Shown here in pieces: positions 1 to 63,078 of a stretch of DNA of 64,000 nt. Each line of letters begins with the position of its first letter. The stretch's first letter is position 1. The notes beneath the pieces were generated by a model. That model saw only the letters and a program-made list of their open reading frames with translations. It was not told the origin of the DNA and did no database searches. Both the position numbers and the translations under genes were made by a program. Source of the stretch: Coffea arabica (Eukaryota > Streptophyta > Magnoliopsida > Gentianales > Rubiaceae); the NCBI RefSeq assembly GCF_036785885.1, contig NC_092323.1, forward strand, positions 8,192,501 through 8,256,500. The letters are read 5' to 3'.

Positions 1-2001
1 GTTTTCTTGGCGGTGTCTCGTGACATGTTCTTTGCACTTTTGTGATGTTATCTTTGATTTCACACTGGTTTATCTATGATAGTTTTAATGTTAGAAGTGT
101 ATGCAGCAGCTTTAAATTTTAGGGACTGAGTACAAGATTGAAATTTATATAGTAGATGAAATGATATTTATTCACTAGAAAGAATCATGCACAGGAAATT
201 CTGATTCCGTATGCATGGAATTTGCCGGTGAATATAGGGTTCCCACTTTTAAATTGGTGTTAAGGTTGTGTACGCTTATTTAGTATTAGGGGGATATTGT
301 CAATTTTTGAACTTGAAATTATGTTTAGAAGGTCGAATTTCTTGGACAATAAAAAGATGCTTTTGGAAAAGATTTCAGTGTAGGTGCAGATTTGATGACT
401 AGGAAAAAAGTAAAACTTTATGATAGTACAAAATTTGCATATGAGAGTTGTACTTTCTTTGGGGAGGTCGTCATAGTTTATTTCTGAACTCTTCTGCCCG
501 AAATATCTTTGTGCAACAGCAATAGTATGTTAATCCTTCATGCATCTCTTCAGAAAAGTAGTAAAATGTGGTAAATAATGCCTAAAGGCAATTCAAGTGG
601 CATAGTTGGACCAAGAAAACTAGCAGAGTCACTTGCAAGGGTATGAGCTTGTATAGTACGTAGTTTGTGTGCATGCATTTGGCGACTCTATGATACAGAC
701 GAGCTTAGTGGATGAAAATGTTTTAGAGGGAGAAACACTTGACTTTAGCTAGTTATACTATGAAAATTGAACTGACTTGGGTTCCAGACTTTTAAAATTA
801 CTAATCAGATCTTGGAGATATGATGTTATAGATAACCCTGCAGGGTTGTCTTCAAGAAGATACAATTTTGACTTATCGAACTTTATTTTAGGTAACAAGA
901 CCCATAAGGGTCGATTGAGGCTCATCAGTTTGCATTTATAAATCTAAGATGCTGTACTTTTTTTTTACAATACAAGTATCATATCTTTAGAATACAGTCC
1001 CTCCTTTTACATGGTATGACTACACTAAAGCAGCTTTTCTAACAACCACTTAAAATAATTTGTGTAACATCTGTTAGGTATTGAGAAAGAGCAACTTGGT
1101 TTCTTGTAATATCATCCTACTAGGATTTTCAAACATGGAGAGCAGATTAGATAGAATTTTATCAGGGCAGACACAAGGTGAACTTTTACCTGATATATGA
1201 GGCTGGATACTTCTCATTATATACAATACAATCATGTAATAATCAGTTTAAGAGGCAAAGAAGAAATTAGCTGAAATGTGAGAAAGAACCAGTGGCCAAA
1301 TAATCTTCTAATTTGAGTTTGGCAGTGGTGTCCATGATGTCTACTTGGTCATGTTCACTTTGGGTTGGCTTGTAGTGCCATCTTGGTGCGAGTTTTGTCC
1401 AAATTAGTTGCTCATTGAATATATCCTTGCAATTGAGTCATATATTGAACACATGAGATGGAGTGTTTATTCTGCACCAAGTTTTGCAACATTTAGAACA
1501 CTTGAATGACAATATGCCTTATTTAGTCAAAACAGATCATCACTGTCTTGTAACTTTAATGAGTTAATGCATATGTTAGAGTAATAAACTGAATAAGCAC
1601 CTAAGATTTCCAAATTTACAGTGACAGACTTGTGCTTGATTTTGTATATGGAAAGTCAGCTCACTCTTTGCACTAACTTTCTTTTCCAAATGATCCAGGG
1701 AGAACCTTGAAATAGAATTAGTGTTCTAATACTGAATATTAAAGCTCTTTATAAATGAAGATCATTGGCACCATCCTCTTAGATATGAAATCATCAAATA
1801 AACTTTATCTGTCAAAAACTTATTCCGTTCATGTCTAATTTGGCGAAAGAAACTAAACTTTCCTCTCAGTTGCATTATGCATTTGGTAGCTGGCATGATC
1901 CTGAGGTTCTTAAACTTTCATTATTCCAAGTTTTGCTGATGTCTATGTGGAGGTTTCACCTTGAATTTTCTGAACTCTTTTTAATGGAGAATGCATTCCA
2001 G
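1..2001 (+). other. Intronic sequence upstream of the first visible kinase exon
   Basis: No coding exon, RNA gene or repeat is recognisable here. The first kinase exon begins at an acceptor (CAG ending at 2001) with one base completing a split codon, so at least one coding exon lies further upstream. The glycine-rich nucleotide loop expected just before the VAVKVI strand is missing from these 2 kb. This stretch is therefore probably the 3' part of a long intron; the rest of the gene is outside the window. Confidence 0.6.
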
Positions 2002-3930
2002 ATATAATTCTGTTCCTGTAGCTGTCAAAGTAATTCAGCCAGACATCTCCTCAAATGTTAGTCCTGAGCGCATGGAAAAGTTTGAGAGGGAGGCTGTGAT
2101 GCTGTCCAGGGTGAAGCATGATAACATTGTCAAGGTATGTGACAAATAAAAAAGAATGGAATAAACAGGGTGCCGTTCCAAAATGCACCATTATTTATGC
2201 TGCATAAAAAAGTTGAATACTATATCCTAATTCTGCATTTGCCAAGGATATGATCTTGTGTTGAATAGTTCATTGGTGCGGCAATGGAACCTGCTTTGAT
2301 AGTACTCACAGAGCTTATGAAAGGTGGCACCCTTCAGAAATACCTGTGGAGCCTCCGTCCCAACTGCCCTGATATGAAGCTTTCTTTGAATTTAGCCTTG
2401 GGAATATCTCGGGCAATGCAATATTTGCATGCAAATGGCATAATCCATCGTGACTTGAAACCCAGTAATACTCTATACCGCTACAGATAAGTTTGCATGT
2501 TTAATTCTCCTCTAGTTCTTTTACTATATGGACTTACAGTGCAAGCATTTCAGATACAAGATTATTAAGACTTCTTAGTAACTCTTACTTCATGTTTTTC
2601 AGCTGACAAAACTTGTAATTTTCTGTATTGAGTTCATGTGAAGATATTTAATTTGACACACCGACACATTCATATTGTGAAGATGTAACATGTTATAGGA
2701 GATACAAACGTTTCAGGAAATTCATGCAATGTTTTCCACATAATCAATTTGCTGTATATTAGTTGATGTTCGTTTAACATGCTTCTTACTGGAATTTGTA
2801 GCTTCACTGCCATCAAGGAGCATAGATTTTCATGATTTTTCACTTAGTCAGTAGGGCTCCATCAATGGAGAAGAAGAAAAAACCTGCAGTTGCTGAATCT
2901 AAACCAACCAAAGACACACAAAAACTATTTACGTATTGCAAGACTCGAAATATTAAATTAACCAGTGAAATGGGTCAAACTCAAAGTCTAAACTTTGCTG
3001 GCCTTTTACTTGTTACTTAAATTTTTTCACTGTTTTGTAGGTAATCTACTCCTCACAGAAGATAAGAACAAGATCAAGCTAGCTGACTTTGGGCTAGCTA
3101 GGGAGGAGGCGGCTGGTGAAATGACTGCTGAGGCTGGTACCTATCGGTGGATGGCTCCTGAGGTAACTAATTTATTCCTCCTGATATACATTTAGAATCA
3201 GTCAAATTCTCGCAATGAGACTTTATTTATTTCCTAAATCAGTTGTTCAGTATTGACCCACTTAAACTTGGAGGGAAGAAGCCCTATAATCACAAGGTAG
3301 ATGTTTACAGTTTCTCAATTGTTTTGTGGGAGTTGCTGACAAACAGCACTCCATTCAAGGGGAGGGGCAACGTCATGGTGGCATATGCTGCAGCTGCGGT
3401 ACGTCCTTCATATGATCTAAGGATCAGGAACTTAGTGACTAATATCATGATGGATATTCTTGGCCCTTTATTTCATATACAATTTGTTTCGATATAGAAA
3501 ATATTTTTGACTGTTATCTTGGCATCGACCAAATCTACTTCCTTTGCATATTTGTTCTTGCTCAAATTGTTGCAACAGTAATCTAGTTTCTAGTGATCGA
3601 TTGACTACTATGCTCTGGATTGACTTTTCTTTTCAGAACCTAAGGCCTAACATGGATAACATTCCAACGGAGATTGTACCCCTCCTAAAATCATGCTGGG
3701 CTGCAGACCCTGCTGATCGACCAGAATTTGCACAAATTACAGATTTTCTTTCAAAGTTCATTGCCAACATGTGCTCAGTGCAGAAGACACTGCCGAATCT
3801 TTTCGACACAGAACATTCAAAGACGACAGGGGCTGAAGATTCTCTAGTTGCGGTCGAATGTTTGAGGAAGCGTAGGGGCAACAACAAGAAGAAAAGGAGT
3901 TTGTTGACTTGTTTCAGCAAGTGTGTTTGA
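2002..3930 (+). CDS. Raf-like (MAPKKK group C) Ser/Thr protein kinase, 5' end outside the window
   Basis: Exons 2002-2134, 2269-2464, 3041-3162, 3243-3398 and 3637-3930 (stop) give 299 residues in one frame. In order they encode the VAVKVI strand with the ATP lysine, a regulatory helix with [13 protein letters not shown], the hinge region ([10 protein letters not shown]), the catalytic loop HRDLKPSN (split by an intron inside the Ser codon), the DFG metal motif ([10 protein letters not shown]), an activation segment ending in YRWMAPE, and the C-lobe with [13 protein letters not shown] and the [10 protein letters not shown] motif. The glycine-rich loop lies upstream and is not visible. From memory the closest relatives are small Arabidopsis Raf-like kinases such as At3g50720 and At5g66710; I infer a cytosolic signalling kinase with unknown substrate. 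The C-terminus is basic ([10 protein letters not shown]) and cysteine-containing. All catalytic residues in view are intact. Confidence 0.88.
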
Positions 3931-24408: not shown

Positions 24409-26465
24409 ATGTCTCAGAAAATTTTTATGATCTCGCCATTTTCGTTCATCATATGCTTAATCTTAGTTTTATGTTTCACCTGCATAAATGTGGGAGCTGC
24501 TTCCGATGAGGAGAGTGAATCCTATTTGGGATCTTTGGTGAAGAAGAAAGATGAACGGAAGCTAATTTCTTCGAGTGAATATGGAGAGATTTCAGGGGTT
24601 AGTGTTAGAGAGCGGACGGATTTGTCGTATCACCTTCAGTTCATCACCTTGAAGCCATTTGCTCTTTTCCTCCCCGTTGTATTACATGCAAATATGGTTT
24701 TCTATGTGCAAACAGGTAAGCAAAACAAGAGCCTAGAGTTTATCCAATTAAATCTTCATTGCATGTCGCAGTCTCTAAAAGGACTCGTACTATTGCTAAT
24801 TTTTGGTGCATTATTAAGTTACTATATATTGGTGTGTGAAACATGGGATGAGGTGATTCAGATTCAGCAGGCCATGAATTCAGAATTTCTCTTTTTCCCC
24901 ACAATTTTGAAGTCGTGGCCTAAAACTTTGCCATGAAATATGAGAGTGTTGCAGGTTCTGGGAAGCTGAGTTACACTAACGAAGCGGGCCGCATGCTGAC
25001 AAAGACGTTGAGACAAGGACATACTTTGGAACTCAATCCAGGGACTATTTTCTTCATGGAGGCCATCCACTGTGTGGACGAACTAAGAGTTTACGCTATC
25101 TTTGGTAATTTGAGGGAACATTTCCGCGTAAGAACTTTCAACGCCCCTGAATTTGTTTCTTTTATCTTATACTAATTTGTAACTCTTCAGTTGGATTTCC
25201 ATAGGGACCGGCAACGACAGCACCATACTCTAGTTTCCGCCACCTGATCCTCGGCTTTGATAAAATGATTCTGCAACTAACCTTCAAGGTACATCAGAAT
25301 TTGGGTTTATTTAGTGGGTGTAATTGCCTCCTTCCCAGTTAACTAGCATGTTTGGCTTGATTTAGGAAAAGAGACAGTATGCGGTTTGGATTAAGGGCTT
25401 CGATCTTGTTAAATGAATTTAGTGATGCAAAATTGTGTTTGAAGGTGCCTGAAGATGTGATTAAAGAGATAATGAATAAACCGAACCCACCGGCCATTGT
25501 TTCCAGCGTCTCGGGAACAATGGAAAAATTATGGGATTTGGAAGCTCGTTTCATTAAAGAATTAACAAGAAGCACGGGGCCCAACCTCCTCAACATGCTT
25601 GGCTTAGAACGAGATTGTGGGAACCATAATGGGTGGAGAACAACATCAAACAAGAAAAAGCTCCCATTTTTCAAAGGTTTCAAAGGTTCCAACTTTGGTG
25701 TTTCCGTAACAAATTTGACCAGAGTAAGTGTGGCTACAGTCAATTAGCTCTTAATTGGCTCCCTGCATTATGCTGCAATACCTCAAATAACTAATTATTT
25801 AAATCAGCAACAATTGACACATATGATGATTGACTCGAATGTTTATCTGACAAAATGCAAAATTCCAGGGATCGATGGTGGCGCCGCACTGGAATCAAAT
25901 GGCGACTGAGATAGTAATTGTTTTACAAGGAAAAGGAATTGTTCTAGTGGTTTGTTCTAGCATTTTTGCTAAACAAAATGAATGCAAAAACATGAGGTTT
26001 CAAGTGGGAGAAGGTGATGTGTTTGTCGTGCCAAGGTTCCATCCTGCAGCTCAAATGTCTTTCAGTGATGAAACATTTGTTTTCATGAGATTTAGTACCA
26101 CAAGAAAGAAAATTAGCCATCAATATCTGGTTGGAAAAACTTCCATTTTCAAGACCTTAGGCAAACGTATATTGGCAGCATCACTGGGTGTCAATGAAAC
26201 AATAGCAGACATGTTTATGGCTTCACAGAGGGAATCCGTAGTCTTGGATTGTAATTTGTGTGCAGAGGAAGAGTTAAGGATGATGGAGGAGGAAACAGAA
26301 AGGGCAAAACAGACGGAACCAGAAACCCCAGAAGCAGAAGTAGAAGCTGGAGAAGGAACTGAAAAACCAGAAGAAGAATCAGGGGAAGGGAAAGATCGAC
26401 CGGAGAAACCAGAAGCTAGAGCCAGGGAATATGAAAATGAAGACACAATCAAAGAAAAGAGATGA
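24409..26465 (+). CDS. Vicilin-like seed globulin (7S, bicupin), copy A
   Basis: Exons 24409-24715, 24955-25127, 25205-25288, 25445-25723 and 25869-26465 total 1440 bases (479 residues). A signal peptide occupies about residues 1-30 (hydrophobic core FSFIICLILVLCFTCI), implying entry to the secretory route and storage vacuole. The first cupin barrel includes LVKKKDERKLISSSEYGE and VLHANMVFYVQTGSG. The second begins near GSMVAPHWNQMATEIVIVLQ and includes GDVFVVPRFHPAAQMSF. The C-terminus is a short acidic tail of about 60 residues rich in Glu and Pro. It resembles Arabidopsis At2g18540-type vicilin-like proteins. An in-frame ATG at 24304 would hide the signal peptide, so the one at 24409 is preferred. 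All five exons match copy B in order and phase. Confidence 0.85.
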
Positions 26466-27611: not shown

Positions 27612-30014
27612 ATGTCCACCGAAAAATTGTTGTCAGCATCTTCAATTTCGCTCTTAGGCTTTGGTTTATGCTTATTTCTCTGCGTGCATGCTACCGCTGG
27701 GGAAGATGGTCAGATTGCCCCCGGAGCAGGACATTTAGTAAAGAAAGGTGAAAGGCAGCCAATAATCTCAACTGAATTTGGAGAGGTCTCGGGAGTTAGA
27801 GTTAGCGATGGAAACGAGACTTTTAATATTCACCTCATCACCTTGGAGCCCAACTCCTTGTTTCTTCCTGTTATGCTGCATCAAGACATGGTGTTCTACG
27901 TTCATACAGGTAATTTTATTATTATTATGTTTTAAAGGTGCTTGGACTCGGGCTGAACCTTCAATTCAGCTGTATCTAATTAGTCTAATAGTGTCTATAT
28001 TATCAAGAACAAGAAATCACCAGTAGTGACTTGTCTTAATCATTGAATTTTGTCAAATTTTGCGGAGTTCATCCTGTTTGTGTACAGGGAGCGGAAATCT
28101 GAGCTACAGAGATGAACATAAAAGAGAGAATACGACCATAAGACGAGGAGATGTTTACCGTCTGGGATCAGGAAGCGTTTTCTTCATACAGAGCGACGTA
28201 GATCTGGAGAGACAGAAGCTAAGAATTTATGCCATATTTGGCAATGCAGGGGAGGACTTGAGAGTAAGAGACTAAAAGCACTATTTTTGTCATTTCACTG
28301 ATTTTGTCAATTGACAATGGATGCCTTCAGTTTTCATACGAGAGTGACCATGACCATGAATATTGCACCATCTAAACTTCTTAATCTTAGGAACCGACCG
28401 AATACGGACCATACTCGAGCATTCGCGACTTGGTTCTTGGATTTGATAAGAAAATTCTCCAGGAGACCTTCAAGGTATGTTATCTAATCTAGCATGTGGT
28501 AAAAAGAGTAAAGAAAGACAGGACTGTTTCTTGAAATCCCTCATTTTGGGTTGTAACCCCTGGTGCAAAATGGTACTCAAGGTTCCTGAAGAAGTGATAG
28601 AGGAAATCACAAGCGGAAGGAAGCCGGAAGCAATAGTTCGTGGATTGCCGGGCACTCAGGAAAAAACCATACGGGAGAGGGAGTATCAGTTCATCGAAGC
28701 CGTGTTTGGAAGCACAAGTATTTTCAGCATTTTCGAAACCAGCAACAAAGACAAGAAGAAGTCCAACATATTCAACATATTCCAAGAAAAACGAGATTTT
28801 GAGAATTGCAACGGGTGGAGCACAACAGTTACCCGGAAAAAGTATTCCGTCCTGAAGGGCTCCAAATATGGCCTTTTCATGGTGAACTTGACCCGCGTGA
28901 GTTTTCAATCTGAGTTTGCCTGAAATTTGTAGCTTGCAGTTAGCAATATGCAAGAATGTGCTACTTACCATACAAAATTTTCCCACTCTGTTCTTGGTCT
29001 GTGCTAGTAACGTAGTAGCCATGAGTAAATAGGTGATTGCTGATGGACTTTATTTTACTTTTTTTTTTTTTCTAGGGAGGGATGATGGGTCCTCACTGGA
29101 ATCCCGAGGCAACGGAGATAGCAGTAGTACTGCAAGGGAAGGGGATGGTTCGGGTAGTTTGCCCAAGTCTACCGAACAAAGCAGAGTGCAAAAACGCGAG
29201 GTTTGGGGTTGAAGAAGGCGACATTTTCGCCGTGCAGAGGTTCCATCCCATGGCGCAGATGGCTTTCAACAACGATACGCTCGTTTTCGTTGGTTTCAGT
29301 ACGTCAACGGAGAACAATCACCCACAGTATCTAGCAGGGAAGGCATCAGTCCTCAGGACTTTGGACAAGCACATCCTGGCAGCATCATTTGGAATAAATG
29401 AAACTACCTTCGACAGGCTTGTGAATCAACAACGCGAATCGGTTATCTTAGAATGCACCTCCTGCGCAGAGGAAGAATGGAGGATAATGGAGGAAGAGAT
29501 TGAGAGGGAAAGAGAGGAGGCAAGGCAGAGGGAAGAAGAGAGGAAAAGACAGGAAGAGGAAGCTGAGACGAGAGAAGAGGAGGCAGTTAGGGAGAGAGCA
29601 GAGGAGGAAAGGAAGAAGAGAGAGCAAGAAGAAGAGGAAGAGGCGGCACGGAGAAAGAGAGAGGAAGAGGCAGCACGAGAAAGGAGGGAACAAGAGGAAA
29701 GAGAACAAGAAGCAGCACAGATGGAAGAGAAAGAAAGGGAAGCAGCAGCAAGAAGGGAGGAGGAAGCAGCTAAGCGAGAAGAAGAAGAAGCAGCAGCACA
29801 AAGAAGACAAGAAGAATCTGGCCAGGGAGAAGGAGGGCGCCCACACGAAGGGGGCAGGGAAGCACGGCCGCCAGAGGAAGACGGAAGAGGAGGAGGAGTA
29901 GGAGCCAGGCAGGAGGAGGAAACTGCAAAGCAACAAGAAAAAGACATGGGACAAGAGGAGGAGCAGGGCAATGGCCAAGGATGGGGAAGAAGAATCCTTA
30001 AAAATGCTTCTTGA
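27612..30014 (+). CDS. Vicilin-like seed globulin (7S, bicupin) with long charged tail, copy B
   Basis: Exons 27612-27909, 28088-28263, 28391-28474, 28582-28896 and 29076-30014 total 1812 bases (603 residues). Residues 1 to about 27 form a signal peptide (ISLLGFGLCLFLCVHATA). Two cupin domains follow, with LITLEPNSLFLPVMLHQDMV in the first and MGPHWNPEATEIAVVLQGKG in the second. From about residue 421 to 590 the protein is almost entirely Glu, Arg, Gln, Lys and Ala (units such as REEEAARERREQEE), then Gly-rich. Such Glu/Arg tails are known in Arabidopsis At2g18540, which supports the assignment. Introns match copy A in place and phase, and exon 3 is 84 bases in both. The purine-rich tail DNA is prone to slippage. 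Expected role: storage globulin of the seed protein body, processed after secretion. Confidence 0.88.
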
Positions 30015-37082: not shown

Positions 37083-39355
37083 TCATGATCCCCTTCCCAT
37101 ATCTTTACCAGAGTACTCGCCGCTGCCACCAAATGATGCCGCTGCAGCAGCAGCAACATCAAGGCCGCCACCAATTGATGTCATTAAGGCAGAAAATCCG
37201 CCTGATGGGCCTCCACCAGCTGCCATCCCCAATCCAAGAAGGTCAAGGGTAGTATGCTTAGGACCGAATACAGATGGAGTCCCCAACATCAGTTCCTTCA
37301 AGCTAGACCCACCGTCACATGGCAGCCCAAGTCCCAGGCCTGCTGCCAATGATGCACTATCAGACTCAATTCCCCTCCCACTCCACTCCTGCTGCCCGCT
37401 CGAAGCTGACGCCGAAGAAACAATCCCGAACCCTCTCAGGAGTGAAGCATTAGTTGCTGCTGCTCCAATCTGAGCAGCTTTTTGCAGTAATGCTGTTGCA
37501 GACATGGCAGGTTGTGGTGCAGGCGCATACTGCCTACGTTCTTGCCCTGCTGTTCCAAAAATTGATGAACCGTGACTTGTAGCAAGACAGAGGGATATGG
37601 GTTCCGTAGAAGAAGACGCTACGACTTCAGATGCATTCTCAGGACGGGCCACAGCTCTAAACAAGTCGGTAAATTCAGGTGTTTGAGATTGCAAGCTTCC
37701 CGATGTTGTTGATGAGGCAAATAAGCTTGCAAACACGCTGCTGCTAGTACTTCCATGACTGCTTGAGCTGCTGCTGCTACCACAGCTGCCGGTTAAGCTG
37801 GTCACAACAGATGTTTCCTCTAGAATCTGAGGTGGAGCGGGACTTTGCGTGGGATTTTCAGGTCCCTCTGTTGAATTAAACAAATCATATAAAAAGAATG
37901 AGGGCAAAAAAAAAAAAAAAGAGCATTCCCTGGTAAAGAAGCAAGAAATGAAGAAAGTATAACCTTTCTTATTAAAGAGCTTTGTATATGATTAAAAGAG
38001 ATTCAATAATACCCTCCTTTCTCGGCATCAACTTTACTTTTAGCTTTTGGCTGGATCTCTGTCCATTCTCTACCAAAAGATTGCTTAGATTCAATCTCAA
38101 TTTTTTATTCATAGTTGAGATATGGTTTTCCCCAATTGAAGTTAGTAGTAGTTCATCCTTGTTCTTATAGTAACGGAGTAAATCTAGTCAACCATATATG
38201 CATATAACAACAAAGAAGAGGAACAGACAAAAACAACTAGACTCCAAGATTAATAGACAAAGAAACAACAACAACAACATTTTGCTTTTCTTTTCTTTTT
38301 TCCCGGCAAAAGTATGATATACATCCGACAAAACCCGGAGTACAGAGCTACATAACTACCCATCATCAGCAGTAGGTGGAGGAGGCTGAGCTACAAATTG
38401 GCAGTTTCGAGCAGAAATACCTGGATTTTGAACAGGCAAAGCTGAAGATGCTAAAGCAGCTGGTGGAGGAGGCTGAGCTGCTACCGAAGGTGGTGGTGAT
38501 GAGGATGCAAGTGTTTGAAGCTTCGGCTCCTCATCATCAGCAGTAGGAGCTGGAAGTGCCTCAACTGTCTGTGCTTTTGCACTCTCCTCAGCTAATGCAT
38601 CACAAAAAGCTCTATGTGTAATAAAGCTATCCCTCCTGCAATCATCAAACAGACATTAACATCATTCTTGAAAATAAAAAGAAAAACAGAGGGAAAAATT
38701 TATCTTAACAAGGTAGGGAAAATATCAGTTAACCTTGAAAACAGAGTCCCACAATCACATTTATATTCTCTAGTTCCACAAATCTTTGAATGAGCTTTCC
38801 AATCAGACTGAACAGCATATTTCTTCGAACACTTGTCGCATTTCCACTTCTTTTCGCCATGTTTTCTGCAGAAATGCTTCTTAATTCCGGTCAAATCGCC
38901 CAATGCTCGAGAAGGATCATGGTGAACACAGGTGAGTTCAGGGCATACATAAACTCTCTTCTTGACCTCTTTGCTCGATCTCTGCCTAAGTTTCCAAGGC
39001 AAATTATGTCCTCTCCGATGCAGCTGCAAATTCTGGTCCCTTTGGAACCCTTTATTGCAAATTTCGCACACAAATCTATTTGTTGCCAACAGAGTCTTTG
39101 GTGACAAAGCAATCACCTCTGCATCCGGATCTAAGAGAAAAACAAAATGAAACTTCAGCAATAAGCAAAAACAGATTACCAGTCTTTTATGTTTTCCTTT
39201 CTGGCTCTTTTACCTGGCATGCCTGGGAGATTTCGTTTTTTCTTGGCAGATGATGTAGGAGGGGCTGCCGCTTGATTGCCTGAAGAAGAAGCACTGGCAT
39301 CACCGGAAGCGGTAGAATCATTCATGACAGAAGAGTTATCCATATCGGCAGGCAT
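37083..39355 (-). CDS. INDETERMINATE DOMAIN (IDD) zinc-finger transcription factor, IDD4/IDD5 type
   Basis: Exons in transcript order are 39355-39214, 39130-38734, 38635-38421 and 37867-37083, 1539 bases (512 residues). A nuclear signal ([11 protein letters not shown], about residues 37-47) precedes the ID domain of four fingers. These are [10 protein letters not shown] (C2H2), [19 protein letters not shown] (C2H2), [19 protein letters not shown] (C2HC) and [18 protein letters not shown] (C2HC, split by an intron). The rest is Ser-, Ala- and Gly-rich. Near the C-terminus is [20 protein letters not shown] followed by LLGLGM, the variant of the TRDFLG motif I recall in the IDD4/5/6 clade. IDD proteins bind an AGACAA-type core and work with GRAS partners in the nucleus, in patterning, metabolism and hormone response. 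A short 3' readthrough form is possible (see findings). Confidence 0.9.
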
Positions 39356-45634: not shown

Positions 45635-46990
45635 GCAGAGAGTTGTCGTTTCATACTTGTGTGGTGGTCAAGATGAGAAAGAAATGGCAAAAAGGAGACG
45701 TGTGCACCGTCTAAAATTCAAAATTAAAGAAGGGACAAGGATGGGACAATGATCGAGTTTGAAGTACAAAAGCCAAAGTCTACTGTAGCGTAGTTTCTTA
45801 TGTTCTTTTTTGTTATAATAAGGAAAGAAAAACGTATGACTGCTTTCTAGTAAATAATTGCAAAACGCAGTAATAAAGTACTGTAAAAAGTTTCCTGATT
45901 TCACTTCAGAAAGGGTGCACGTTCTCCTACGTGTCTCAGAAATTTTTATTTTTTTATTTTTTGTTGTCGTCAGCATCAACTAGTTTCCATGATGCTGCTC
46001 TATCATACAAGTGTTTGCTTTCCATATTTATGAAGAAATACGTAGCAAGTAAGAATGGAAGACGAGGAGAATGGAAGATCTTGACTGTTTATCGTAAACA
46101 TAAATAATATGCTTATTTGTTGGGAGTTTAGGATCGGAAATGAAAGAAGAGAGAGTTTATCATAAAAGAGGAGAGGGCAGTAGGATGGGAATACTTGTCT
46201 GGGAGTAGCAGAAGAAGAAAGAACCACCGGTCCTTTTGGCTCGGTGGTCACCTATATGTGACTATTTTCAGTGACTCTCTTTTATGGAATTTCTACTCTC
46301 AACTCTATCTTTTCCCTAATTATGATAGTTTAAATTAAAAAAATATTACAGTTACTATAAAAAAAAAAGTAATAGAAGAAAAAAGGGAGAGAAAAAGTTT
46401 TCTCCTCTAGTATGTGGCTCGGTTTGACGGACAAATAGAACAATAATTATTTTCATAGACTTTAAATGACACAATCAAATTTCCTTTTTTATATCTAACC
46501 ACTTTTCAAGAGGGAGCTTTCTTCTTCTATTTCTCTCAATTAATTTTTTTTCTTTTCCCTCCACTTAAAAACCCTGAAACAAAGAAAAAATAAGCAATTT
46601 CTCATACTTTCCCTTCTCTTATCTCCATTTCCTACCATCCAAACGCCCTATGGTAAAATAAAACCAAAAAGAGGGACAGAGAGTATAAACTAGAGAGCGA
46701 AAATCATTTTCGATAATCATCATTTAGTGTAGGACTCTATGCCATGGTAACAACCACAAAGCCGGCATAAGACTTTTCTCAACATCCACATAATTAATTG
46801 CATTGACTTGGAACGCAATTGCTTTACCTTTTTTTCTTTTCTTCTTAAAAGAATTTGTCATATCATATTCAAACTTGTTATCATGCTGGACAGAAATGAT
46901 GGGCCTAGCCAAGCTGGATTTCTAGTGCAGTAAGGCACTCGTTTTCTTTATTCAAAAATCAAAATAGGAGGAGAGTATCGCAGGGAACCC
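45635..46990. other. Intergenic region before the Pack-MULE
   Basis: No gene is seen. Around 46500-46640 the sequence (CCACTTAAAAACCCTGAAAC) resembles a block near 54600 and 54945, suggesting a further low-copy repeat family. Confidence 0.45.
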
Positions 46991-47652
46991 TTTTCTTTTG
47001 GGTAAAATACACTAAACCCCCATGTAGTTTGGGTTATTATCATAAAGTCTCCTCATTATTTGAAAACCCCCAAAAAACCTCCTCGTGGTTTGGACTAATT
47101 TGGGTAATGGACTGAAATCGTCCAATTTGACGGGAAGTGAATTACACACGCTTGACAAGCGAGTGTGATAACAATACATCAAGGGTAATGTGGTAATTTT
47201 ACATTTTCTTTTCTTTTCTTTTTTTTTTCCTAGTTCTTCCTTGTTCTTCTTTCTCCTGAACTGAACCATCTGGAGTAGAAAAACTGAAGCAAAATCAACA
47301 CCAACCTTTGTTAATCCGGTGACACCCGGCAAAAGATTCCACCAACGGAATCCAGTATTTGCTTCAACCCTTCACCAACCGAAGCAACCCAACACCTCAA
47401 CCTTCAAACTCCTCGAAGCCTAAAACCATCTGCTTTTCCCAGTTGTTATAACTTGTACCACCAATTTGTAATTACAAATTTCTACTAGAAGGGGGAAAAA
47501 AAATTTCCCCGAACTCCTTCAGAATCATCATCATCTACCACCAAGTACAATTAAACTGGTTGGCCCGATACCTGCCCGGAGGCTGACGTGACCCAGACCC
47601 GTAAGCTCAACCGGACCCAGAGAAATCCGAGGACGAGACCACCCAGAAATGC

Positions 47653-47684
<32 letters not shown>

Positions 47685-48507
47685 ATATAAGGGTACCAAT
47701 AGTACCGTGGGTTAGTTGTTAATTTGTGTCAAACGTCCACTTTAGGGTTGGCTGCTTGGTGAAATTGAGGTTATTGTTATTGCCCTCGGAAGCGAAATAA
47801 TCGAAATCTACGACAAGGGATTTCAACCAAGTAAACTTACGAAGAAATTGTGGCAGATAATCCAGCACCAGGTAGTGATCGAAGGCACAATAGGGTGGCG
47901 AAAATGTCCACATGACGGAGTCATAGGCTGCCAGCTGAAGAAACACCATAGGATAGGTGACAGCATGGACCAGTTTGCCGGGAAAAGCAGCCAGTCGGAG
48001 TGTGGGATCACGTTGGATGAGTGAGATCTGAAGAGGGATTTTGAAAGAAACAGATTCGGATTTGTAAACAAGAGAAGAGAATCTTTTGGAGACTAAAGGA
48101 ACACCTAAAGAGATATTTGGCTTCAAAAACTTTGTCAAGAATGACGGAAACTATTGCATCTGGTAATCGCTTGAATGGATCAACAATTTCTTTTCCTCGA
48201 TGTTCTTCTACAGCGGCTGCTCCAAATTTTTGAAATTTTCAAATGAGCCACTTGATGTTTCTTTATTCTCAAATGAAGTGAAAAAGTTTCTAAAATCTTA
48301 TGTAAATCTTGAACTAACTTTTAGTATAGGTTGAAACAAGGTTAATATAGGAATTTCATATTTTCCGTTAAATTGGACGATTTCCATTCATTGCCCAAAT
48401 TAATCCAAACCACGAGGGGGTTCTTTGGGGGTTTTCAAATAATGAGGAGGCTTTATGATAATAACCCAAATCACAAGGAAATTTAGTGTATTTTACCCTT
48501 TTCTTTT
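46991..48507. mobile_element. Pack-MULE: Mutator-like element carrying a captured gene fragment
   Basis: The element is 47000-48498 (1499 bases). Both ends begin GGGTAAAATACACTAAA and are inverted copies for about 140 bases with scattered differences (shared blocks TTGGGTTATTATCATAAAG and CCTCCTCATTATTTGAAAAC). Both flanks are TTTTCTTTT (46991-46999 and 48499-48507), an exact 9-bp target duplication, which is the Mutator length. No transposase is encoded. The interior holds a decayed F-box gene fragment on the minus strand and a CAT microsatellite at about 47660-47682. A GC-richer block at about 47560-47650 may be a second acquired piece. An exact duplication with 140-base inverted ends suggests a fairly recent insertion. 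Confidence 0.82.
47719..48240 (-). pseudogene. Captured F-box gene fragment inside the Pack-MULE
   Basis: Reading leftward from about 48240, the minus strand encodes an acidic lead-in and then KEIVDPFKRLPDAIVSVILD, which fits the start of an F-box (xLPDxIVxxILxKVxxxK). The continuation VSKRFSSLVYKSES is the usual second half of an F-box, but it sits in another frame, so there is a frameshift near 48100. A 100-residue stretch (LIQRDPTLRLAAFPGKLVHA, VTYPMVFLQLAAYD, YLPQFLRKFTWLKSL) then runs to about 47760. I do not recognise the exact F-box subfamily. It has no introns in view and lacks the C-terminal part, consistent with a transduplicated piece of a host gene. Confidence 0.65.
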
Positions 48508-58200: not shown

Positions 58201-61200
58201 GTCTTTAAATTGTTCTTCAAGAAAGAATTCATTCATTTTCCTCGCATAGGTTTGTCATTTTTATTATGACTACAGTCCTTGAAATAGAGATTAGATAACT
58301 ACAGTATTTTGTTAAAAATTCAAAAGCTGCAGTATTTTGTTTTGTGCTTTTTATTGTATGGAAAAATTGGTAAAGTGGATTATCAATCACGAGTGTGAAC
58401 AGCATATCTTTATGGATTGAGTGATTTATTTATTTATTTACTTTTTGCTTATTAAATGATAGATGCGCCTTTTACAACTTATCAGTCTCTTCATTCTTCT
58501 CTTCTCTTTCTCAGGATTGGATACCTCTCAACTACCATGGAGCAAGGAGTGATATTTCGATGAGATATGTGAGAAAAATGGTTGAACATGATTCTTCTCA
58601 TATACAATTTTCAATGAACAGGTATGATTCATTACTGTATTTTGTACCCTGTTAGTAATGAGTTAGAACCCACCTGGAATCTGCTGAGCAAAAATGTGGT
58701 GCAGCTTGAGTAGAAGACAGTTTAAAGAGTTTTAGCTTCTAAAGCTTTTCGCTTTAACCCCATTCGTCTTTTGTTTTCAATTTTGAAGGCATGACTATGT
58801 GAACACCTTGTGTCCTGGCACATCAAATGAGAATAATGGATCCAATGGGCCTTCGAGAAGGTATTTAACACATTAATTGAGTGATAGGTGACATAAGCAC
58901 TGATTTTTATGTTACAATGTCAATTTTTTTCTTTCTTAATTTCGAATTTTTTACATACAAACTCATTGGGGTTAAATTCTCTATCATACTGGATGACTTG
59001 TTGATTTCTATCAGTGGATAAGAAAATGTCTGTTTAGTGGATGAGTAATTTACATGCTCATTTGGCTTTGGCTGGTTAGAGTTGTACCTCATATGGTCCT
59101 TTAGCTTTCTTTAGATACGTTGATATCAGGTCATCCACTGTCATCTGTAGGAATACAATTTTGATGTTGCTTTGGTACAATACTTGTTGGCTTTTTGCTG
59201 TGGTGGTAGAATCGTGTTTCATTGCTTCACTCAAGTGATCTCATTGTCTGATTTTTTCCTGTTCCTGCCTTTACATCCCGTCTCAAGAGCCAGCAATGAC
59301 TGACATTTGGTGATAGGGACTCTCCAAATGCTCAGTTTCTTATGGAACTTATATTTATTTCTATTCCTGCATTTTCTTTTGGTGCCAATTTCTATTCGTG
59401 CTTTTGAGATTGTCTCTCTTTCTGAATTGTTGAGACTCCAGGGTTTTGCTCTCATTGCCACTTGAAGAACGATTTAGAACTTGGCTTCTTCAGGTACATT
59501 CTGCTTATTTGGACTCGTGAAATTCATTGAATGAATGAACTATAGATTTTTATTGGAACCTGAGTGATGACTGTAGTTGATCTGCTTTTAATTTTATGAA
59601 TTTAATTAGTTTTTTCAGTAATGCTGTTTCTTGTTTGGTTGTGTATATCTTTTGTAAATTTTCAATGTTCAACTTACACACTCTGCTCTTTGTTTGGACA
59701 TATAATCCTGTAGCAGAAACACTACCTAGAGTATGCATGGCAGACCCAAAAAATTGGTAATACCAAAGAATTTCATCCGTTGGCAAATGTGACCACAAAT
59801 ACTCTCTTGGCATTTCATTTACTGGTTGAGGATTTCTTAAAATTGTGAAACTTTGCAATGTCGCAATATGATACTATTTTATTGCCAATGTGTTCCATCT
59901 GACAGTATACAAATAATTGCTAGATATGCCATATTGAAGTATCAAAAGTCCAGATAGCCCTGGGTCAGTTATTACAGAAGTCATTAGCTTGTAATGGGAT
60001 TGCATAGCAAGCACTTTTTGCTAGGATCATCGGAGAGGTGCTTGTAAACCCAAAGCAGTAGCATGGTATACTGAAAAATTCATAGGACTTATTACTTAGA
60101 ACGATGGAATGCTATTTCTGTACCATCTGATTAACCTTGCTGGCAATAGATGCTCCGATTTCCTACTTGACTGCTGGTCAGCTCATTGAAGATCAAAATT
60201 CAACATGTTTGGAGTTTTAATTTTTAGCAGATTGGACATGGGTATAAAGTTTTTTGAGGGTTGTATCACCACAGCATTAATTCTTTTATCTGTTGCAGTT
60301 TCTGTTCACAATTCCCAGCTTCTGCCTACTTGGTTTTTAGTCATCATGGGAAGTTAGAGTTGATGACCTTGTACTTGTAATTCTGCTTTATAACTTTATT
60401 TGAAGTAATGTGGAGAAAAACCTTCACAAATGTGATGGTCCTGGGCCTCTGCACTTCTGTTCATCAACTTTCTCTTCTTCAATTTCAAACTTAATATGAC
60501 AAATAGATCTAGTATCTTGATGTACACAAGGGCCTTTCTAATCCAAAACTTTTGTCTGACATTACTGAATTGTTAGAAGTTAGCTACCCATCTCTGTTTT
60601 AGACAGATTGTTAAAGACGATTAAGAGATTTTTCATTGTAATGCTTCTCAATTATCCTCCTTTTTTTCCTTTATTGACATTTTTTAAAATTACTTTGTTG
60701 GTATACCTTAATTTGTTTATTCCCCGTTTAATCAGTTAGGTAGTTATTATTATTATTATTATTATTTCTATAGGGGCCTCCAATCCATCGTTTTGATGCT
60801 TTAAAGCATTTGGCACCTGATGCATCTGTCGAGGATATCTTGGCAGTCCTCAGCCAACATGCTCAATTAGTTCAAGGCTTGTGGATTCCCAAAAGTTCAC
60901 TGCTGTATGGAAAAGATCAAGGAATTGATGCTTTAGCGAGGGATTATGTTCTTCTTCTGTTTAGCAGGACTCCTATTATTAACAATTCACAACTACCACA
61001 ACAACAGAAACTCAATAGAGCTATGAGAGATGTACTTAACACAATAGCTTTTGAGAGAGCTTCTCTTAATGATTGGAAGTTCAAAGAGCCTCCTGACATG
61101 ACATTCATAAAACTTAACCCTAAGATTGTCAGAGAACAGGAACAAACTTGGGAACGCTTGGAGAAACTGATAACTGAAAAGATCTTTGGAGATAAAATCA

Positions 61201-63078
61201 GGCCTGCTACTAAAAACTCTTCAAGGCCTCTCACCACAAATAACCCTGCAACATCAAAGAGTTTAAGTAAGCATGCATCAAATTCTTCAAATGCAGGAGT
61301 GCCAAGGAGACCAATGTCAGAAGAAACTTGCGAGGCTTTACCAAAGGCCCTTCAGAAACTTTTTCAAAGTCACAAGGTTTGCAGGTGATTTTTTTTTTCC
61401 TGCCTTTGGTTAGATATTGCTAGTATTGTTAGCATTCTTAACTTCAGGTTATTATGTACGGTTCATGCCAACCACTTCTTCTTCTTTTCTTATTTAACGA
61501 AAAATGGTAGAAGGGAGTATCTACACAAAACAAGGGCAAGCATCAGTACTACAAACTGCTAAAGCAGCAGTGTGACAAAAACCAACCTACAAAACTAACA
61601 ACTGTTTACACAACAGCATTACATTAAAATATCTTCAGGCAATAATTTTTGCTCAAAAGTACTAGAAGGCAGGGTTCATCCAAGGGCCAGGGACCTATCA
61701 TCCTAAGTGCTTCGAATAACTTTCTAAGAAGCACACACACCTCTTACATTTGTTAACTGTATCAACACAGAGTTCAGGGATGCACACAGTAAATGTGTTG
61801 TAGCTGGTTTTGACCCAAGTAACAATTGATTTGCTAGTTTAGTCCCAGTGTATGGGATGTAGAACCATCTACTATGTATTTGTGATAGCTATAGAAATAG
61901 ATCTAGTTTCTCGACAGAAGTATGTGTTTTGCATGGGTGAGCAAGTTTATTGTTAGTCCCCTTTTCATGAAGTCTCCTATCTGCAACTCAGCCACTAATC
62001 AAGACATTAACTGTTTAATTGGATGGTTTTTTTTTTCTTCCCTGCTAGCAACTTAAGAAATATGTATTGACATTGACAGCTTCCAACAAATTTGCCAGCG
62101 TCTAAGGGAAATGGCAGTTTCCGAGTCTTCCCGTCCAAAGGGATTTGCTAGAGAAGCAATAGCTGCAGCACATGGTGTTGAAGCTCCTCCAGAGGAGCTT
62201 CAGGCAATCATTAGTCAAGTCGCAATTAACATTCATGGTGTTTATGTTTTGAAATCATCCCCAGTTCACCCCGAACATGATGAATTCAGGTTATTGCTAG
62301 ATCTCCAGCCCCTACACTTTTCCTATTTTTATTATTTACTCAGTGCATAGTCAAGATTAGTTTTCATTTGCAGGAAAGTTGTCATTGATCTTTTCATTGC
62401 TGAAGGACCAAACGCAAAGCTTAAGAAGGCCTCAATGATAGAAGCTGCTAAATTTCAGCTTAAAAGGGATATTAACAGCCTGGAATATCAAAAGGTCAAG
62501 CCTCAGAGCTTGAGTGCTTTATTTGTCTGTTTGCTATCCTTTTGGTTTATCCAGAGCAAAATTATTAGATGCGTATGGTCACGTCCATAAACCAACTTCA
62601 GTTTTTGCATGAGATAGATGCTTTTTCAAATGACAAAGTGGGAGCTGCATAATGAAGAATAAGTAGCATGTGACATATCTTAAAATTGAGTAGTAGTGCT
62701 TTGCTCTCTTTATTGGCTTAAGTGATGATGTAATAAGTAGATTATACTTTGAAGTAGGTAGGAACTCTACTGAATATGGGAGTGTAGGTGCTGTCTGAAA
62801 CTCTGGAACTGATAGAGCAAAACAAGAAAGCTATGCATTTGAAATACTATTAATAAATTGAGGTGCACAGTCTGGTCATCTTGCAAGTCTGTCCTTGCTT
62901 GTTGTAGTGGAGCATTGACAGTCTCATGGGTCACTCTTGAACAGATTTTACCTTACGCTTTTGTCGAATCTGCAGTTTAGCTAATCTTTTACCCTATTGT
63001 TTTCAGGTTGTACAGGAACTATGTGTATCTCAAGGTTCGGCTTGGGTCTTGAAAAGTGGTGATGGAAACCCGAAATGA
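55223..63078 (+). CDS. DNA-directed RNA polymerase III subunit RPC5 (Sin-like family)
   Basis: There are thirteen coding exons: 55223-55594, 55682-55750, 55926-56033, 56657-56725, 57520-57672, 58054-58101, 58515-58621, 58789-58860, 59442-59493, 60774-61384, 62080-62289, 62374-62494 and 63007-63078. They total 2064 bases (687 residues). The N-terminus is acidic and disordered-looking (MDFDDLDEPSQ, EEEAEQPKDEPMESREEGED). The family hallmark LYVLQYPLRPLWRPYELNDR follows, then GYAVGVLVGNKLHLNPIHAV and DWIPLNYHGARSDISMRYV. The large exon 10 encodes winged-helix-like segments (FDALKHLAPDASVEDILAVL), and the conserved end is VVIDLFIAEGPNAKLKKASM. RPC5 pairs with RPC4 in RNA polymerase III, which makes tRNAs and 5S rRNA, and helps initiation and termination. 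55223 is the first ATG in the frame. Only the 610-base exon 10 is long; most others are under 160 bases. Confidence 0.9.
60747..60770. repeat. ATT microsatellite at the RPC5 exon 10 acceptor
   Basis: A run of TTA/ATT units ends a few bases before the acceptor TTTCTATAG (60765-60773). It occupies the usual place of the polypyrimidine tract, so length changes could affect splicing. Confidence 0.7.

Follow-up and report, generated by a model that had tools for sequence, protein, structure and literature searches.

Pack-MULEs, known from rice, tomato, Arabidopsis, and maize, are non-autonomous; they have long inverted ends, carry captured gene fragments, and are flanked by target-site duplications of 9-11 bp. 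The element described here shares all of these features, and only its pair of captured genes and its host differ. In the excerpted text of the tomato study, MULEs are given target-site duplications of 9-11 bp, and multicopy Pack-MULE families such as PM-ZIBP are described with differing duplications of 9-10 bp and with end identities of 87-95% among five tabulated rows (PMC3310237). According to the same excerpts, the PM-ZIBP family has mostly doubled ends, whereas the element studied here has single ends (PMC3310237). Single elements holding pieces from several loci are reported for rice, Arabidopsis, and maize in part of another account (PMC8903248), and gene capture is covered in a 2026 review, cited here from an excerpt (PMC13317346). 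Animal Pack-TIRs, as far as the excerpted report describes them, are similar in having captured DNA between their ends, microhomology at the breakpoints, and multiple copies made by repeated transposition, but many of them lie near the parental locus (PMC8277862), whereas the donors in the present case are on contigs other than that of the copy studied. Pack-CACTA elements also carry pieces of host genes in the excerpted description (PMC8903248). They belong to another superfamily, which the 9-bp duplications and the ends found here do not fit. CACTA elements differ from these both in duplication length and in end motif. We do not present an F-box Pack-MULE as a novelty in the literature, and knowledge of Pack-MULEs is unchanged by this element. 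It provides a well-resolved case, in a large plant genome, of capture from two genes, with donors, empty site, copies, and sisters at hand, in which the order of capture and spread can be read and which offers a clean test case for the action of small RNA back on donor genes.

The stretch of DNA analysed, hereafter the window, comprises 64,000 nucleotides (C14:8192501-8256500), and the genome searched comprised 1.198 billion bases in 131 contigs. The window contains a non-autonomous, chimeric Pack-MULE with two host-gene captures that has spread to at least five sites, an identification made with high confidence. The preliminary description had reported inverted ends of about 140 bases and identical 9-base flanks. 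The repeat finder measured ungapped arms of 137 nt with 88.3% complementarity (121/137 matching and 16/137 differing), and both flanks read TTTTCTTTT; the interval 46991-48507 includes both duplications in full and nothing beyond them. When the whole window was scanned for ungapped 137-nt arms matching at 103 or more positions within a span of up to 3 kb, this was the sole pair returned. Of 62,483 window positions, 10 showed an identical 9-mer 1,508 bases further on, and about five of these ten come from the element's own site because the flank identity there extends to 13 bases (ACCCTTTTCTTTT). The left flank ends in ACCC, as the element does, and the same ACCC is present in the C13 region described below. 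All 1,499 bp of the element were assigned to the ends, the two captures, and the bridge between them (Table 1). The G+C content was 0.46 and 0.43 in the captured pieces, compared with 0.37 and 0.31 in the element ends.

Table 1. Coordinates of the element and its parts in the window.
Feature	Position	Strand	Remark
Whole Pack-MULE, 1,499 bp	47000-48498	.	Repeat structure and alignment with copies
Left 9-bp target-site duplication, TTTTCTTTT	46991-46999	.	Single copy TTTTCCTTT in putative C13 empty site
Right 9-bp target-site duplication, TTTTCTTTT	48499-48507	.	
Left terminal inverted repeat, 137 bp	47000-47136	+	
Right terminal inverted repeat, 137 bp	48362-48498	-	
Left element end common to sisters with other cargo	47000-47316	+	To about element base 317
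Captured fragment 1, predicted leader/upstream DNA of ACC-synthase-like aminotransferase gene	47314-47684	+	Sense
39-bp bridge between captures	47689-47727	+	Recurs in C19 and C12 sisters
Captured fragment 2, F-box gene codons 12-179	47721-48223	-	Reversed, one extra base
Right element end, 274 bp, common to sisters	48225-48498	+	Includes right inverted repeat

The duplication of 9 bp is within the 9-11-bp range of MULEs, and the inverted repeats of 137 bp are within the typical range of 100-500 bp. Other TIR superfamilies, whose duplications differ in length from 9 bp, are ruled out by the 9-bp duplications. The interior contains no transposase but two host fragments with outside donors, and it moved as a unit, as is characteristic of Pack-MULEs. 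Profile search of three window frames gave no transposase match; the sole match of frame 47015-47371 was Ycf70 at 14.6 bits, below the cut-off of 25, and was taken as chance. No NCBIfam match was obtained for frame 47722-48150, and a search of a plasmid collection returned no match. For each donor locus (L039-L042), 8-10 kb of surrounding sequence contained no match to the element ends. The proposal of the preliminary description that a Mutator-type element had picked up a piece of an F-box gene and transposed with it is borne out by the ends, the duplication, the donor, the copies, and the C13 empty site.

Captured fragment 1 (element bases 315-685, approximately 370 bp) showed 92% identity to C4:3108453-3108824 and 91% identity to C3:3088149-3088514 among the best 40 of 128 candidates. 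In both loci, the matched stretch stops about 31 bases before an ATG that opens a frame starting MRLVVPLQG. This downstream frame matched aminotransferase class I/II (PF00155, E 4.7e-61), its top PDB matches were plant ACC synthases (best E 5.8e-89), and its N-terminus presumably resembles the ACS10/ACS12 type. As judged from these alignments, fragment 1 derives from an ACC-synthase-like aminotransferase gene, from its leader and/or its proximal upstream DNA, and is a second capture that the earlier reader had overlooked. At four compared sites that differ between the C3 and C4 loci, all seven full-length copies of the element agree with C4 at two and with C3 at two, and 21 of 355 sites set all seven copies apart from both loci. 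A capture predating the C3/C4 locus split is weakly favoured. The pairs C3/C4, C13/C14, and C17/C18 are inferred to be homeologous on the strength of a few kb of sequence similarity rather than a synteny map.

Captured fragment 2 (element bases 722-1224, approximately 500 bp), when reversed, showed 93% DNA identity to C3:12510577-12511081; further relatives among the best 40 of 128 candidates were C3:12514295 and C4:12394603 (79%) and C4:55079079 (76%, partial). The fragment includes the F-box of the C3 donor frame, which scored 25.7 bits for F-box-like PF12937 (cut-off 24.3) and 24.1 bits for F-box PF00646 (cut-off 20.5). The two window frames of this piece gave no Pfam match, and the piece was identified by its DNA identity to the host gene, not by a domain match. 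The F-box gene piece that had been noticed in the middle of the element is real, and the search for its donor locus, which had been suggested as a check, was successful. The donor frame (C3:12.510 Mb, L039 4111-5220) is broken by an in-frame stop at a position where its neighbour reads on. This neighbour, a tandem paralogue, has an uninterrupted frame of 403 codons between stops; the C4 relative is divided between two frames. The preliminary description had named the lack of an intact F-box paralogue as evidence against capture; an open paralogue exists, although its F-box, at 18.2 bits, is below the Pfam cut-off of 20.5.

The layout of the two fragments bears on a possible regulatory effect. 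With fragment 1 in sense orientation followed by fragment 2 reversed, a rightward transcript begun in the captured leader or in the left inverted repeat would hold antisense F-box sequence, and small RNAs derived from it could lower the expression of the F-box or aminotransferase donor; such a function would be added to the Pack-MULE identity and would not replace it. Perfect 21-mers shared with the window copy numbered 118 for the F-box donor, where the longest run was 63, and 81 and 71 for the two aminotransferase loci, where it was 45; the intact F-box paralogue had only 5, and the best-matching donor is the one with the in-frame stop. Promoters in MULE ends that drive Pack-MULE interiors, as well as Pack-MULE small RNAs, are reported in excerpts of two studies (PMC3310237, PMC8277862). 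However, 85 of the 116 private changes in the seven copies, with direction set by the majority among copies and no outgroup, were C>T or G>A, which hints at methylated, silent DNA. An effect on donor expression is considered unlikely. A broader version, in which the element would be a mobile antisense unit of host leader or promoter and reversed F-box at no fewer than five sites, tuning F-box and perhaps ethylene-synthase-like expression, appears quite improbable.

It is less probable again that the F-box piece still encodes a competitor of the full F-box protein. Most of the piece is spanned by a minus-strand open frame of 143 codons; however, 7/7 copies have one base more than the donor and both paralogues, an addition that breaks the F-box frame and separates the F-box from the remainder, and the window frames lack a Pfam match as noted above. 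A coding F-box product was rejected on the basis of this common frameshift. Since the extra base is in all seven copies, it most likely disrupted the frame before they diverged from their common ancestor. The chimera itself was formed before its spread. Most likely, no protein is made from the element, and it has no function for the host.

The search with the interior (47230-48350) gave at least seven full-length matches among the best 40 of 128 candidates, namely C14 (the window), C2, C12, C3, and three on C9. The six non-window copies showed 94-97% identity over the interior and 93.7-96.7% over the whole element. The genome DNA searches scored the best 40 of 329 and the best 40 of 128 candidates, and the copy numbers are lower bounds. 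There were at least five independent insertions, with 9-bp duplications that are exact and mutually different at C14, C2, C12, and C3. The duplication of the C9 insertion is degenerate, with 6/9 positions differing in an ungapped comparison, and one 9-mer pair is common to the three C9 copies, whose flanks (up to 3 kb on the left and 1.2 kb on the right) are 96.8-98.6% alike. The C9 copies are thus block duplicates of one insertion, as their flanks and 9-mer pair are common. The Pack-MULE-bearing block occurs in three copies over the 160 kb of C9:1.20-1.36 Mb.

Duplication of the 1.5 kb plus flanks at other loci had also been named in advance as evidence against a captured and transposed element. 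It applies to the C9 copies but fails for the window copy; apart from the C9 block duplicates, no flank matches between the five insertions were found at E 1e-10. Segmental duplication of a larger block, which does account for the C9 copies among themselves (flank identity about 97-98%), is hardly credible as the origin of the window copy and is refuted by its exact 9-bp duplication, by the C13 empty site, and by the lack of resemblance between its flanks and those of the other copies.

The left flank of the window copy (46050-46990) aligned to C13:6443620-6444034 at 89% identity through the last base of the flank. Between the same neighbours, C13 reads TTTTCCTTT, a single copy of the 9-mer with one base changed from TTTTCTTTT. 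Against C13, the joined window flanks with one 9-mer aligned over 1,191 columns, of which 1,027 were identical, 42 mismatched, and 122 gapped. This paralogous C13 region is uninterrupted and looks like an unoccupied site, because of which the window insertion would be younger than the C13/C14 divergence; on this alignment, 42 of the 1,069 aligned bases are mismatched, and this divergence bounds the age of the insertion. In the seven-copy alignment, the window copy had private changes at 21 of 1,450 gap-free sites (1.4%), a value comparable in magnitude to one half of the divergence between the C13 and C14 flanks (approximately 2.0%), and no absolute insertion date is derivable from either value. 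The preliminary description had regarded the ends as near-identical and had taken them as a sign of a young insertion. Both points were abandoned, as 16 of 137 end positions differ. Moreover, divergence between the ends is not a clock for such elements.

Other elements with the same ends, which had been suggested as a further check, were found in the form of at least six further full-length copies and ten sisters. The first 22 bases of the left repeat had 57 exact genome matches on both strands, compared with 0 for a reversed control pattern. Twelve sister loci were fetched, and the ten with both ends recognised were used (L051 and L058 were left out). All ten match the window copy at both element ends but have other interiors, and the two captures are absent from them. 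Their 9-bp duplications were exact in 8/10, with one mismatch in one sister and two in another. Sisters on C18, C17, C8, and C3 (L043, L047, L044, and L049, respectively) have a common interior, and three others (two on C22 and one on C7) have another. The C18 sister (C18:29838500-29843500, element 1525-3037) contains a receptor-kinase-like protein-kinase fragment (PF00069, E 4.7e-19), indicating that the end family took up more than one host gene. The C17 and C18 sisters descend from one older insertion, since their flanks are 97% alike and they have one duplication in common. Sisters on C19 and C12 also contain the bridge, the former with all 39 bp (95%) and the latter with 35 bp (91%). The bridge is older element sequence that may itself be old cargo, and because such older sequence separates the two captures, they probably represent two events.

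In the proposed origin of the chimeric Pack-MULE, an element with these ends took up the aminotransferase leader/upstream DNA and, in the opposite orientation, the 5' coding part of the F-box gene. Uptake may have occurred at the DNA level via gap filling or template switching, both of which are discussed for Pack-TIRs and Pack-MULEs in excerpted text (PMC8277862). The breakpoints share about 3 and about 6 bases with the donors, as read by eye only. The finished chimera then moved to at least five sites, including the window, presumably mobilised in trans by a MULE transposase, and the copies may be silenced at present.

For the source of transposase, 150 of 2,147 candidate MULE-transposase frames in the genome were scored, and comparison by eye placed none of the scored matches closer than 50 kb to any of the 57 exact matches to the ends. 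A candidate element of 7.4 kb on C2 with two such ends (L065, C2:25829900-25837700) carries instead a frame with the transposase-associated domain PF13963. This frame is probably a nested insertion, which we take to be a CACTA-type piece.

In the window, the Pack-MULE lies between a BIRD-IDD zinc-finger frame (38703-39209, minus strand) and an RPC5 frame (60774-61385, plus strand), several kb from each. Other window frames with domain matches were GRAS and cupin, and these four kinds of match together indicate plant DNA. The cupin frame (29076-30011, PF00190) has a long charged tail, and frame 25851-26462 is similar to it by eye, suggesting a tandem pair.
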